From assembly GCA_030680795.1 (NCBI GenBank), contig JAUXUL010000011.1:1-64000 (forward strand): 64,000 nucleotides of DNA, written 5' to 3'. This document shows positions 22,039 through 53,358 of this stretch, piece after piece (position 1 is the stretch's first letter; each line of letters opens with the position of its first letter). A program made the translations under genes and the position numbers. This DNA comes from Anaerolineales bacterium (GTDB lineage Bacteria > Chloroflexota > Anaerolineae > Anaerolineales > Villigracilaceae). Below the pieces are notes generated by a model. The model did no database searches. It saw only the letters and a list, made by a program, of their open reading frames with translations, and was not told the DNA's origin.

Positions 22039-22217
22039 TCTCTACCGTACAACCGTCATTGCGAGGGCGCTCCCTTCGACAGGCTCAGGGCGACGCTTAT
22101 TTTTGCCCGAAGCAATCTCAGACTGTGGGGAGATTGCTCACCACACTGGCGTACGGCGCAAGTGTCGCCGCCGAAGTACAAAAGCGGCGTCCCGCGATGA
22201 CGGATGTACGGTAGAGA
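22039..22217. repeat. 179-bp MITE-like palindrome (gtcattgcgag/gaagcaatct family)
   Basis: Perfect 13-nt terminal inverted repeats tctctaccgtaca / tgtacggtagaga, extended by ccgtcat / atgacgg; internal gaagcaatct/agattgct. Confidence 0.75.
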
Positions 22218-38815: not shown

Positions 38816-40273
38816 CTAATTTCTTCTCTCCTCCAGCGCCTTCGCCAACAACTCCTTCGCCACATTCGGGTCAGCCTTGCCTTTGGTGGCGCGGGCGACT
38901 TGTCCCATGAGCCATTGGACGATGGTCTCTTTGCCAGCGAGATATTGCTCAACTTCCTTAGGGTTATCGCTCAGAATATTTTCGATGGCTTCCTGAATAA
39001 ATCCTGTATCCGAAACTTGCGCGAGATTTTTGGCTTTGACGATCTCCTGCGGGTCGCCGCCGCGCTTCGCGTTGAGCATTTCGTTGAGCACGATCTTGCC
39101 TGAGTTGCCGCTGATGGTTTTATCTGTGACCATGTCTATCAGTTGCGCGAATTTTTCGGCAGGCAAAACAATATCTTCCAACGCCAATCCTGAGTCGTTC
39201 ATGTAACGCATGAACTCGCCCGCGATCCACGAGTGGATTGTCTTTGCGGGGCTCTTGGATTTTGAAACCACATCTTCAAAATAATCCGCGAGCGATTTTT
39301 CGGAGGTGAGTAACATGGCTTCCTGTCGTTTCAATTCATATTGTTCCATGAAGCGGCGGGTTTTTGCATCGGGCAATTCAGGGAGTCCACTCTTGATCGA
39401 ATCAATCCACGCGCGCTCGAGTTGAAGCGGGGGCAGGTCCGGTTCGGGGAAGTAGCGATAATCATGCGAGTCTTCCTTGCCGCGCTGTGAAATGGTCACA
39501 CCGCGCGCTTCGTCCCAGCCCAGGGTTTCCTGCATGACTTCGCCGCCTTTTTCATAGACTTTAATTTGACGTTCGATCTCATAAGCGGATGCGCGGGTCA
39601 GCGCGCGAAAACTGTTTAGGTTCTTTATCTCGGTTCTCGTTCTTAACTCAGAGCTGCCACTCGGTCTGACGGAGACATTCGCCTCGAAGCGCAGGATACC
39701 CTTTTCCATATCCCCAGAGTTGACTCCCAGATAGCGCAGGATGGCGCGAATTTTGGTCGCGTACGAAAGCGCGGCTTCCACGCTTCGCATATCTGGCTCG
39801 GAGACAATTTCGAGCAGAGGCACGCCTGCGCGATTGAAGTCCACAAGGGCGTAGTTTTTTTCGTGAGATAACTTGGCGGTATCTTCTTCGATATGCACAC
39901 GCCGAACGACCACCCGCAGTGGATTTTCTGTATCATCCAAAATATCCAGATAGCCTTTAGATGCAATGGGAAGTTCATATTGCGAGATTTGATAACCTTT
40001 GGGCAGGTCGGGATAAAAATAATTTTTACGCGCAAAGGTGTTGAATTCGTTGATGGAGCAATTCAATGCCAGGCCAACCAGTGTGGCTTGTTCAATCGCC
40101 TTTTTATTGAGAACAGGCATGGCGCCAGGCAAGCCCGTGCAAACGGGACAAATAAATGTGTTCGGCTCTGGCGCGTTGGAATAATCCGCTGAGCAGGAGC
40201 AGAACATTTTTGAGTTGGTTCGCAACTCAGCGTGGATTTCAAGTCCGATGACGGGTTCGTAGGTTAGTTGCAT
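38816..40273 (-). CDS. gatB: Asp/Glu-tRNA amidotransferase subunit B
   Basis: YEPVIGLEIHAELRTNSKMFCSCS...CPVCTGLPGAMPVLN. Confidence 0.96.
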   Translation of the reverse strand: MQLTYEPVIGLEIHAELRTNSKMFCSCSADYSNAPEPNTFICPVCTGLPGAMPVLNKKAIEQATLVGLALNCSINEFNTFARKNYFYPDLPKGYQISQYELPIASKGYLDILDDTENPLRVVVRRVHIEEDTAKLSHEKNYALVDFNRAGVPLLEIVSEPDMRSVEAALSYATKIRAILRYLGVNSGDMEKGILRFEANVSVRPSGSSELRTRTEIKNLNSFRALTRASAYEIERQIKVYEKGGEVMQETLGWDEARGVTISQRGKEDSHDYRYFPEPDLPPLQLERAWIDSIKSGLPELPDAKTRRFMEQYELKRQEAMLLTSEKSLADYFEDVVSKSKSPAKTIHSWIAGEFMRYMNDSGLALEDIVLPAEKFAQLIDMVTDKTISGNSGKIVLNEMLNAKRGGDPQEIVKAKNLAQVSDTGFIQEAIENILSDNPKEVEQYLAGKETIVQWLMGQVARATKGKADPNVAKELLAKALEERRN

Positions 40274-49915: not shown

Positions 49916-50917
49916 CTAGATGTAATCGAGAAGCTCGTTTACGTTTTTCAGTATCGTAGTTTTATATTTTTTATCCACCTTACTTCTTTGAATTAAATCG
50001 TGCCAAAAATTTTCTGTAACAACAATATCACAATATGGCACTGCTATTACCAGAGATCGGATATCGGCCCAGTCGTTTTCATCAATCATTCTGTCCCAAT
50101 GAACGTTTCGCATTGTAACTAGTTCTGTTTCCAAATCCAAAGTTGGAATACTCTCTATGAAGCTAATAGTTTCTTCCTCTCCCAACGAAATAACATCATC
50201 TATAGTTTTATCGTAAATGGCAAGGGCGTTATTAAAAAATTCCCTAGTTTCTTTACCTCTAACATAATCTGAAATAAAAATTCGTTTTTGAGGTAGCTGG
50301 GATTTGGAGAAATGCTTGACCTTGGAACGGACACTTTCATTCAATTTTGCAAAATTTGATATACCAAATTTATAGCCAGCCAATGCATCAGTTAATTGAC
50401 TTTCGCTGATGATATTGCCTGTTAGAAACATTTTTATCATTTTCGGTGTTGCTAGAATTTTTTTGAAATTGGCTAGGAATTCTTTTGACGAAGCCATTGG
50501 CTCGTTTTTTTCTCCAGCAATCTTATTTGCTATTGCCTGCAAATTGATGCCCCAAATAAGAGAAAGGTCTTGCTCAAATACTTTTGGTCGACTAGGTAAA
50601 GGACATCCAAAGATTCTCGCGCCCGCAATTTGGACTTCAATAGGAGTAACATTATCAAGCAAAGCTATTCCCCACCCTTGAGAAAGAATTGACATGGTTT
50701 CAGCTAATTTTTCTTTTCGATCTATATTCCGAATTTTTTGTGTCTCTAGAAAATGATAAGCTGATAGAGGAAGCCTAACCTTGTCATTTTCAACCAAATC
50801 TTGTAACTTCTTCAAAACTAATTTATATTTTTCCCCTTCTTGAGAGTTGTAGTTAGCTTGTGCTAAATAAATCCACTGATTTTGGTCGAGATATATGAAT
50901 GGGGGATCATTATTCAT
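49916..50917 (-). CDS. PIN-like domain protein coupled to a UvrD-type helicase
   Basis: N-term FIYLDQNQWIYLAQ and C-term DWADIRSLVIAVPYCDIVVTENFWHDLIQR fit PIN acidic sites; ATG at 50917 overlaps the helicase TGA stop (ATGA). Confidence 0.55.
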   Translation of the reverse strand: MNNDPPFIYLDQNQWIYLAQANYNSQEGEKYKLVLKKLQDLVENDKVRLPLSAYHFLETQKIRNIDRKEKLAETMSILSQGWGIALLDNVTPIEVQIAGARIFGCPLPSRPKVFEQDLSLIWGINLQAIANKIAGEKNEPMASSKEFLANFKKILATPKMIKMFLTGNIISESQLTDALAGYKFGISNFAKLNESVRSKVKHFSKSQLPQKRIFISDYVRGKETREFFNNALAIYDKTIDDVISLGEEETISFIESIPTLDLETELVTMRNVHWDRMIDENDWADIRSLVIAVPYCDIVVTENFWHDLIQRSKVDKKYKTTILKNVNELLDYI

Positions 50918-53358
50918 TTCGTAAAGTTCTCCCACCACCCCATCAACTCAGACATCGCCAGACTCGGCGTCGCATCACCCTGACGACCTGAATTCCACGT
51001 CACGATCAAATCCTTCTTCGCGCGCGTGATGCCCACGTACAGCAAACGCAGACGTTCCTTCACATACCCCAGCCGCGACTGCATTGTCGCCGCGCCTTCC
51101 TCGTACCAGTCATATTCACTCGTCGACTCCAGCGCGGTCAACTGTGCCAGCGCCTCCGCTTCCAAATTCAATCCACTCCGCACGAACCACTTCTCCGAAA
51201 TAAAATGGTCATTCGGCATGTTCGACGGGAAGTCATAATTATTGACCGACATCATATACACGCGGTCCCATTCCATGCCCTTCGCCTTGTGCATTGTCGT
51301 CACCACCACCTTGCCGCGATGCCGTTCAGGGTCAAAGCCCGAATCGTCCGACGAGAAGCCGATGAAGCGCCGCTCGTTCTTCGCGATCACCGCCAGTTCC
51401 GACGTCAACTCAGGCAGGCGCCAATCCGCGTGGTCGTTCGCGGCCTGCCTCAGCACCAGCGCCAGTTTATGCGCCAGCGCCAGATCCGACGCTTCGCTGA
51501 ACACATCCTGCGCCAGCGTCAGCACCAACTGATCGATCGGAAGCGTGACCGCATTCAACCATCTCTGGACATTGACTCGAAACTCCATCAACTCCTGGAT
51601 AACGTGCTCCGCCTCAGACTCACCGACAGTTGCCAGCCAGTCATCGGCTTGACTCGGCGCGATGAATTTTTCCACATAAACGAGCCTCCGCAGAATAGCA
51701 GTCACCCCTTTCAATAATTCGGGGTCGCTCTCCCTAATCCCTAATTCACTAATCCCTAATCCCTGCTCCCGCCAATCCCGCCGAAAGACTTCATACGCCT
51801 TCGACAACTTCCGCGCCGATTGTGGGTCTGCCAGATACGACAATAAATAATTCAACGATCCCGCCGCCGCACGCGTATTCGCCGTGGACGAGATCAACTC
51901 GATGGCTTCCACGCCGCGCTTCCGCAGCGACTCAACCACTTCAACGCCGCGTTGATTGCGCGGGACAAGCACCGCGATGGTCGGCTTTTCTTCATGCGCT
52001 GAATTAGCAAATGAATCCAAATGACTCTTCACCGACTTCACCACCGCTTCCAATTCTTCTTCGGGCGTGAACTTCCTGCTGATGAACCGAATCCCCTCAG
52101 GGTTATCAGGCGGGTTGACAGGTTCATAGCCCGCAGGCACAGGCTCAATGTGGGGGAGCGACAATGCCGAGCGCACATTTGGGTCGGGATGTGATGTCAT
52201 CGTCCAATCAATCAAATGATTTGCCAGCGCGATGATGGATGGTTGTGACCGCCCCGACTCGGGCATGTCTGCATTGGGATTGGTACGAATAAACTCACGC
52301 AGCAGGTCAGGGTCAGCTGTTGTGAACGTTTCAAAGATGGCTTGATTCGGGTCACCGACACGAACCCATCCTGAGCGGAGCGACGAGCGCTCTCCGAGGA
52401 GCGTAGTCGAAGGACCTCCCTCTCCTCGCTGAGCGGAGCGACGAGTGCTCTCCGAGGAGCGCAGTCGAAGCGCATCGTCGCCAGCAACGCCCCCTTCGAC
52501 TTCGCTCGCGGAGCTTGTCCTGAGCTTGTCGAAGGACTCAGGGAGGAGGGAACCAGATAATAGTGACAATATCTTTTGCTGCGTCCTGCTTGAATCCTGC
52601 GCTTCATCTTCCAAAATAAATGGATAGCGAAAACGTAATCGCTCCAGATATTCTTCGTCGTTTTGAAGCAGAGTCAATGCGAGACGAATCAGATCGTCAA
52701 AGTCAACCGCGCCACGATAGGCGAGCGCGCGTTGATAGTCCGCATAAATACTCCAGCCGAGTTCAGCGAGAGGTAACGGGGCGAAAGATGAATCTAGTTT
52801 GAGTCGCAGGCTATCGGGAGTCAGGAGGCGATCTTTCGATGAGCGGATGAAAGCCAATGCCAGCGAGTCCACCAAATTGGGCAGCTGCTGACGTTTCACC
52901 CAATCCCGTTTGGAGGTATCCAGCGCGGGGTCGAGATAGTCATCCAGAAAATCGGGATGAGCCGCCAGCCACGCGTTAACCGACTCACGTCGGATGAAAT
53001 CCGCCTCGCGCTCGTCGATGATACTGAATTGATTTTCAAGCCCCACGCTCGCAGGCTTCTCGCGGACAATGTCATGCGCCAGCCCGTGCAATGTGCGCAC
53101 GCGATATTTATAAAGCACCTGAACAGGGTTCTCGAAAAATCCTTTGATTCGGTTTTCGAAATTATCTACCGCCGAATTGACCAGCGTCACGATCAGCACC
53201 TCCTGCCCATCTTGCAGTTGGTTCTCTTGAATGATCTGCGCCGCCAGCGCAGAGAGAATGTGCGTTTTGCCCGCGCCAGGCACAGCGGCAATACCCAACC
53301 GTCCGCCTGCGTAGCGGAGGATGTTTTGTTGGGAAGGTCTGGGTGAGAAATCAGTCAT
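50914..53358 (-). CDS. UvrD/PcrA-like superfamily 1 helicase
   Basis: LGIAAVPGAGKTHIL Walker A; FILEDEAQDSSRTQ motif II; WVRVGDPNQAIFETF motif III; VVVTTMHKAKGMEWDRVYM; LRLLYVGITRAKKDL. Confidence 0.92.
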   Translation of the reverse strand: MTDFSPRPSQQNILRYAGGRLGIAAVPGAGKTHILSALAAQIIQENQLQDGQEVLIVTLVNSAVDNFENRIKGFFENPVQVLYKYRVRTLHGLAHDIVREKPASVGLENQFSIIDEREADFIRRESVNAWLAAHPDFLDDYLDPALDTSKRDWVKRQQLPNLVDSLALAFIRSSKDRLLTPDSLRLKLDSSFAPLPLAELGWSIYADYQRALAYRGAVDFDDLIRLALTLLQNDEEYLERLRFRYPFILEDEAQDSSRTQQKILSLLSGSLLPESFDKLRTSSASEVEGGVAGDDALRLRSSESTRRSAQRGEGGPSTTLLGERSSLRSGWVRVGDPNQAIFETFTTADPDLLREFIRTNPNADMPESGRSQPSIIALANHLIDWTMTSHPDPNVRSALSLPHIEPVPAGYEPVNPPDNPEGIRFISRKFTPEEELEAVVKSVKSHLDSFANSAHEEKPTIAVLVPRNQRGVEVVESLRKRGVEAIELISSTANTRAAAGSLNYLLSYLADPQSARKLSKAYEVFRRDWREQGLGISELGIRESDPELLKGVTAILRRLVYVEKFIAPSQADDWLATVGESEAEHVIQELMEFRVNVQRWLNAVTLPIDQLVLTLAQDVFSEASDLALAHKLALVLRQAANDHADWRLPELTSELAVIAKNERRFIGFSSDDSGFDPERHRGKVVVTTMHKAKGMEWDRVYMMSVNNYDFPSNMPNDHFISEKWFVRSGLNLEAEALAQLTALESTSEYDWYEEGAATMQSRLGYVKERLRLLYVGITRAKKDLIVTWNSGRQGDATPSLAMSELMGWWENFTK
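51731..51770. repeat. Intragenic taatcccta micro-repeat within the helicase gene
   Basis: tccctaatccctaattcactaatccctaatccctg; related strings are intergenic near 11788-11810 and 32610-32636. Confidence 0.6.
52369..52550. repeat. In-frame palindromic repeat insertion in the helicase gene
   Basis: Contains cttcgacaagctcagg-type palindrome and two near-identical 42-bp units (52371-52412, 52429-52470); disrupts spacing between motifs II and III. Confidence 0.75.

Follow-up and report, generated by a model that had tools for sequence, protein, structure and literature searches.

Between motifs II and III, a UvrD-like helicase encoded in the window (the whole 64,000-nucleotide stretch of Anaerolineales DNA analysed here) has a loop of 61 residues where insert-free orthologues have 4, and the reading frame is kept. 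Where does this additional DNA come from, and why do related species hold different DNA, or none, at the same codons?

An insert in a conserved helicase

The host gene (Table 1) matches the Pfam domains UvrD-helicase (E 8e-38) and UvrD_C (E 2e-21). With these N- and C-terminal domains and the SF1 motifs GAGKT, DEAQ (motif II, residues 251–254), VGDPNQ (motif III, residues 334–339) and YVGITRA, all of them conserved, it belongs to the UvrD/Rep/PcrA group of SF1A helicases. Outside the insert the gene is under purifying selection, with a dN/dS of about 0.10–0.15 against close relatives.

The first-pass annotation, made from the letters of the sequence, had proposed an in-frame insert of about 60 residues between motifs II and III, and we could locate its peptide (Table 1). 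It had also taken the spacing between these motifs to be normally short in UvrD proteins, and in relatives it is short: the alignment with PcrA breaks at chain residue 239 and restarts at 248 (residues 267 and 333 of the helicase studied here), the matching gap in the PcrA chain being about 8 residues. Orthologues were drawn from relatives and from MAGs of Anaerolineales and other Chloroflexota (27 named loci). Their alignments commonly run to residue about 270 and restart at about 330, and insert-free members have LLSG-x-G-x-N immediately ahead of WVRVGDPNQ. The comparison with UvrD homologues that the annotation had called for thus confirms an insertion. All 17 helicases outside the inner clade of congeners are insert-free, so an empty loop is most simply the ancestral state. 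Taken with the repeat content described below, the evidence supports the view that palindromic repeat DNA was inserted, in frame, into a conserved helicase.

A structural prediction, also called for at the outset, agrees with this. Our AlphaFold2 model (20-sequence alignment; mean pLDDT 69.9, pTM 0.52) gives residues 271–327 a pLDDT below 50, between a helix at 258–268 and a strand at 330–335, which supports a disordered loop around the insert. Given the middling overall confidence, the model backs predicted disorder and no detailed structural claim. The pLDDT also falls below 50 at residues 532–542, where the gene carries another in-frame repeat. This second repeat has 7 further matches in its own genome, mostly weak, and congeners hold other repeat types at its site, for example of the MSLRGQSPKQ type.

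Table 1. Helicase gene, insert and repeat units in the window.
Feature	Position	Strand	Remarks
UvrD-like SF1A helicase gene	50914..53358	-	814 aa; from ORF, Pfam, orthologues and dN/dS
In-frame insert between motifs II and III	52369..52551	-	residues 270-330; from alignments and pLDDT
42-nt unit, first direct-repeat copy	52371..52412	+	91% over 47 nt to own-genome C38:1780-1826
42-nt unit, second direct-repeat copy	52429..52470	+	95% over 42 nt to own-genome copy C38:1780
CCTGAGCTTGTCGAAGG core	52519..52535	+	15 exact copies genome-wide; reversed-pattern control 0
Older class-A element with a few nt of flanking sequence	52418..52557	-	83% over 140 nt to L086 helicase insert
Second in-frame repeat, same helicase gene	51722..51782	-	residues about 527-546; CTAATCCCTAATTCACTAATCCCTAATCCCT; length-variable site in orthologues

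Layers of the insert and its relatives in the genome

The insert contains two 42-nt units that are 95% identical to each other, as the annotation had seen, and the first of them is probably the newer layer. The first 140 nt hold an element of the class we call A; the insert in the helicase of L086, a distant congener, is 83% identical to it and shares its frame and orientation. Judged from these sequence comparisons, the window allele would be an old class-A element that was later overlaid by 42-nt units of a local subtype.

The palindromic nature ascribed to the insert needs one qualification. An inverted pair (52399–52413 and 52493–52507, 15 nt, 93% complementary) and dispersed repeat units are present, but the insert as a whole folds back weakly (z −1.44 for 182 nt; z −1.96 for the older 137 nt), because several repeat units make it up. 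We dropped whole-insert fold-back as evidence for the window allele since it is too weak. Inserts of several congeners fold back far more strongly (z −5.5 to −9.9).

The units of the insert recur throughout the genome. With the 182-nt insert as query, 42 other partial matches were obtained in the own genome at E up to 10. Alongside the exact core in Table 1, CCTGAGCNNNGCGAAGG has 19 genome copies (control 0) and the relaxed core CTGAGCN{2,3}GTCGAAG has 100 (control pattern 1). About 27 of the 37 distinct sites examined lie outside recognisable genes and about ten inside; within the window, the core has two more copies, at 22074 and 46693, and both lie between genes. These many dispersed and mostly intergenic copies are what is generally understood by REP sequences.

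The helicase is not the only gene affected. The same repeats lie in frame in PrmA, CobS, PrmC, TrmD, CobQ and an APH_6-like kinase of this genome, all six confirmed by Pfam. They are read in different frames, giving peptides such as FDKLRT, LRQAQD, LSLSKG and HPERSEGS, so no single peptide is conserved. In congeners, loops of PrmA (loci L181–L210) and TrmD (loci L151–L180) hold dispersed repeats of various kinds, much as the helicase loop does. The helicase thus strongly illustrates a habit of the whole genus and is not its sole case. For a genome-wide insertion rate, a syntenic comparison yielded about seven real genes that were comparable, synteny being poor. Two observations were made in passing. 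A tyrosine-recombinase-like ORF holds two palindrome cores (G000:C16:103250 and C16:103699; L045, L050), read as TELVERVSD and AELVEVSS. The G001 orthologue of the window gene at 38819–40273 has a CCCTCTCCC-like repeat in frame (SPARRGDSLPPSGEGLG), and the window gene is without it.

Turnover of occupants among congeners

Within the inner congener clade, the loop is occupied in 30 of 41 distinct helicases and empty in 11. Class A accounts for 5 of the occupied loops, B for 11, C for 6 and D for 4; the remainder are two more palindromes, both GC-rich, and two inserts left without a class. The classes are mutually unrelated in DNA sequence, and at least five unrelated palindrome families stand at the same helicase codons, all in frame.

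Occupancy changes often even between close relatives. On a quick maximum-likelihood tree, built with the insertion site left out and with some weak forks, about 26 changes are needed, 19 contrasts lie on branch-disjoint paths, and eight path-disjoint switches are each between two classified elements. Sister species with different occupants include L056 (B) and L066 (C) at a dS of 0.28, L061 (C) and L080 (A), L064 (A) and L078 (D), and L074 (D) and L082 (E2), while in another pair L063 is empty and L092 holds D. This turnover contradicts a single ancestral insertion, even if part of the A and B copies may have a common origin; insertion into the helicase loop has recurred. An unrelated conserved domain of equal length in orthologues, which the annotation had named as a finding that would undo its claim, is likewise rejected, since the occupants vary between sister species and are dispersed repeats.

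Which family a helicase carries seems to reflect the genome around it. Copy numbers of families A–C vary widely among 49 congeners. Without correction for phylogeny, family B has a median of 27 copies in genomes that carry B in the helicase versus 4 in others (p = 3e-4), family C has 46.5 versus 5 (p = 0.024), and a label permutation over 19 genomes links the carried family to its abundance in the carrier (p = 0.0035). For B and C, then, the carried family tends to be abundant in its carrier genome; for class A, carriage in the helicase and genome abundance showed no link. At the junctions, many inserts of unrelated classes have GGYGG directly before and GGNGGN directly after them, which is possibly a target duplication or merely the glycine-rich loop.

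Explanations and known systems

We consider it probable that REP/MITE-like repeats have landed in frame in this loop again and again and were tolerated there. Short, non-autonomous, hairpin-forming repeats of this kind would spread through the genomes of this Anaerolineales genus, presumably by transposition. One disordered helicase loop, running from the helix that follows motif II to the motif III strand, would tolerate the extra peptide, which would be close to neutral. Arriving copies would be retained if their length is a multiple of three and their frame is open, and retained copies could afterwards be overlaid, replaced or lost. Artefact or chance has next to no chance of explaining the pattern: the source is a draft genome, but about 30 separately assembled congeners are occupied at the same site with the frame kept. 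Assembly error as the source of the window insert is itself very unlikely because independent MAGs have the same site occupied.

Orientation is constant within each insert class and frame nearly always so, which is not expected of random landing; it is therefore probable that part of the A and B copies go back to older alleles held in common, by descent or by exchange. The same constancy, at the same codons, could reflect a directed hot spot, with the insertion machinery favouring the G-rich loop DNA (GGCGAGGGCGGC-type) as its target, so that several families arrive with the same orientation and frame. That many inserted alleles, in all classes, have GGYGG at the 5′ junction would fit such targeting, as would the eight switches between classified elements. 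We nevertheless regard a directed hot spot as rather unlikely, given that the families are unrelated in sequence and would hardly share one enzyme, and that the PrmA and TrmD loops, which have other sequences, are filled too. The inserts could also have few origins and have spread among congeners by homologous recombination across the loop. Some classes have a central spacer sequence common to distant species, and several sister pairs with unlike occupants (L063/L092, L056/L066 and others) differ markedly in the 30 nt that adjoin the loop on its 5′ side, where 18–20 of 30 positions are identical compared to about 28 beyond. Moreover, the class of a serine codon beside the loop is associated with occupancy, TCN with inserts and AGY with empty loops (Fisher p = 0.002). 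The flank divergence and the codon switch suggest that some of the cases involved either allele exchange or a sequence-specific event. As the main explanation exchange seems doubtful, because the divergence is confined to about 30 nt, unrelated elements stand on one 5′ haplotype (family B in L055 and family D in L092, 29/30 nt), and the carried family fits the carrier's own abundant repeats.

It is tempting to speculate that the loop is a true hot spot, entered in one orientation by several mobile palindrome families and also exchanged between species; we think this improbable, but if true, selfish hairpin DNA would have, in a bacterial repair-type helicase, a docking site that is used repeatedly and regenerates. 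That the peptide, or an mRNA or DNA hairpin, modulates the helicase, its expression or its repair activity is very doubtful. One site has been maintained over a long time, and published intragenic REPs are biased towards replication and repair genes (PMC3733652), yet the peptides are unrelated between species, eleven congeners do without an insert, non-repair proteins are hit as well, and the insert has low predicted order.

Repeated, tolerated landing has precedents. Rickettsia palindromic elements (RPE; Ogata 2000, 2002, cited in PMC10969869) are palindromes of ~150 bp that lie in frame in many unrelated conserved genes and form several families, the host proteins being presumed functional. 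The comparison with RPE made in the first-pass annotation is apt as an analogy: here too, palindromic repeats from several families lie in frame in conserved ORFs, and insert-free orthologues exist. The likeness is one of mode. Unlike RPE, the repeats belong to another phylum, unrelated families reoccupy one loop of one gene across sister species, and the repeats, read in several frames, do not give one conserved peptide. A further precedent is that of the intragenic GTAG/CGTC REPs, hairpin repeats within ORFs that include many replication and repair genes, among them UvrD/Rep helicases and recB (Di Nocera 2013, PMC3733652). In that study, recB of two Xanthomonas species had different REPs at nearly one and the same position, and GTAG repeats were reported in Chloroflexi. 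Repeats overlapping protein genes are also described as coding palindromes and inverted repeats in nematomorph mitochondria (PMC6649704) and as intragenic MITEs in Coxiella (PMC5896051), both in unrelated lineages. By analogy, the helicase case works like RPE and intragenic REPs.

A literature search returned no relevant published in-frame repeats in Anaerolineae, and in-frame coding palindromes have so far been known mainly from Rickettsia and from scattered intragenic REPs. The case is real and of a known kind; what is new is the unusually clear and broad reuse of one coding site across so many repeat families and species. With about 30 occupied and 11 empty congeners, unrelated elements and close sister pairs, the loop offers a natural replicate series, and for this reason landing frequency, neutrality, mode of loss and preference for replication and repair genes become testable.

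From the GTAG/CGTC REPs the case differs in that at least five families share one site in about 30 species, and neither a mobilising enzyme nor a transposase link was found. The GTAG tetranucleotide is missing at the ends of the window's class A units, and membership of class A in the GTAG REPs is not supported by their sequence; one class D insert, of the congener L078, starts with GTAG and finishes with CTAC. Y1_Tnp genes are present in 45 of 49 genomes. A RAYT link, with repeats flanking a Y1 transposase gene, was rejected for the own genome, whose Y1 genes are without flanking palindromes and where families A–C are absent at all five Y1_Tnp loci. Among 20 Y1 loci in other genomes, only four have a motif of any family nearby, at a distance of up to about 1.5 kb: B at two of them, C at one and F at one. 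A small Y1_Tnp gene (about 138 aa, MPYWKLYYHFVWGTKNR...), absent from the window, lies near the helicase in eight loci (L057, L061, L070, L079, L090, L092, L099 and L111).
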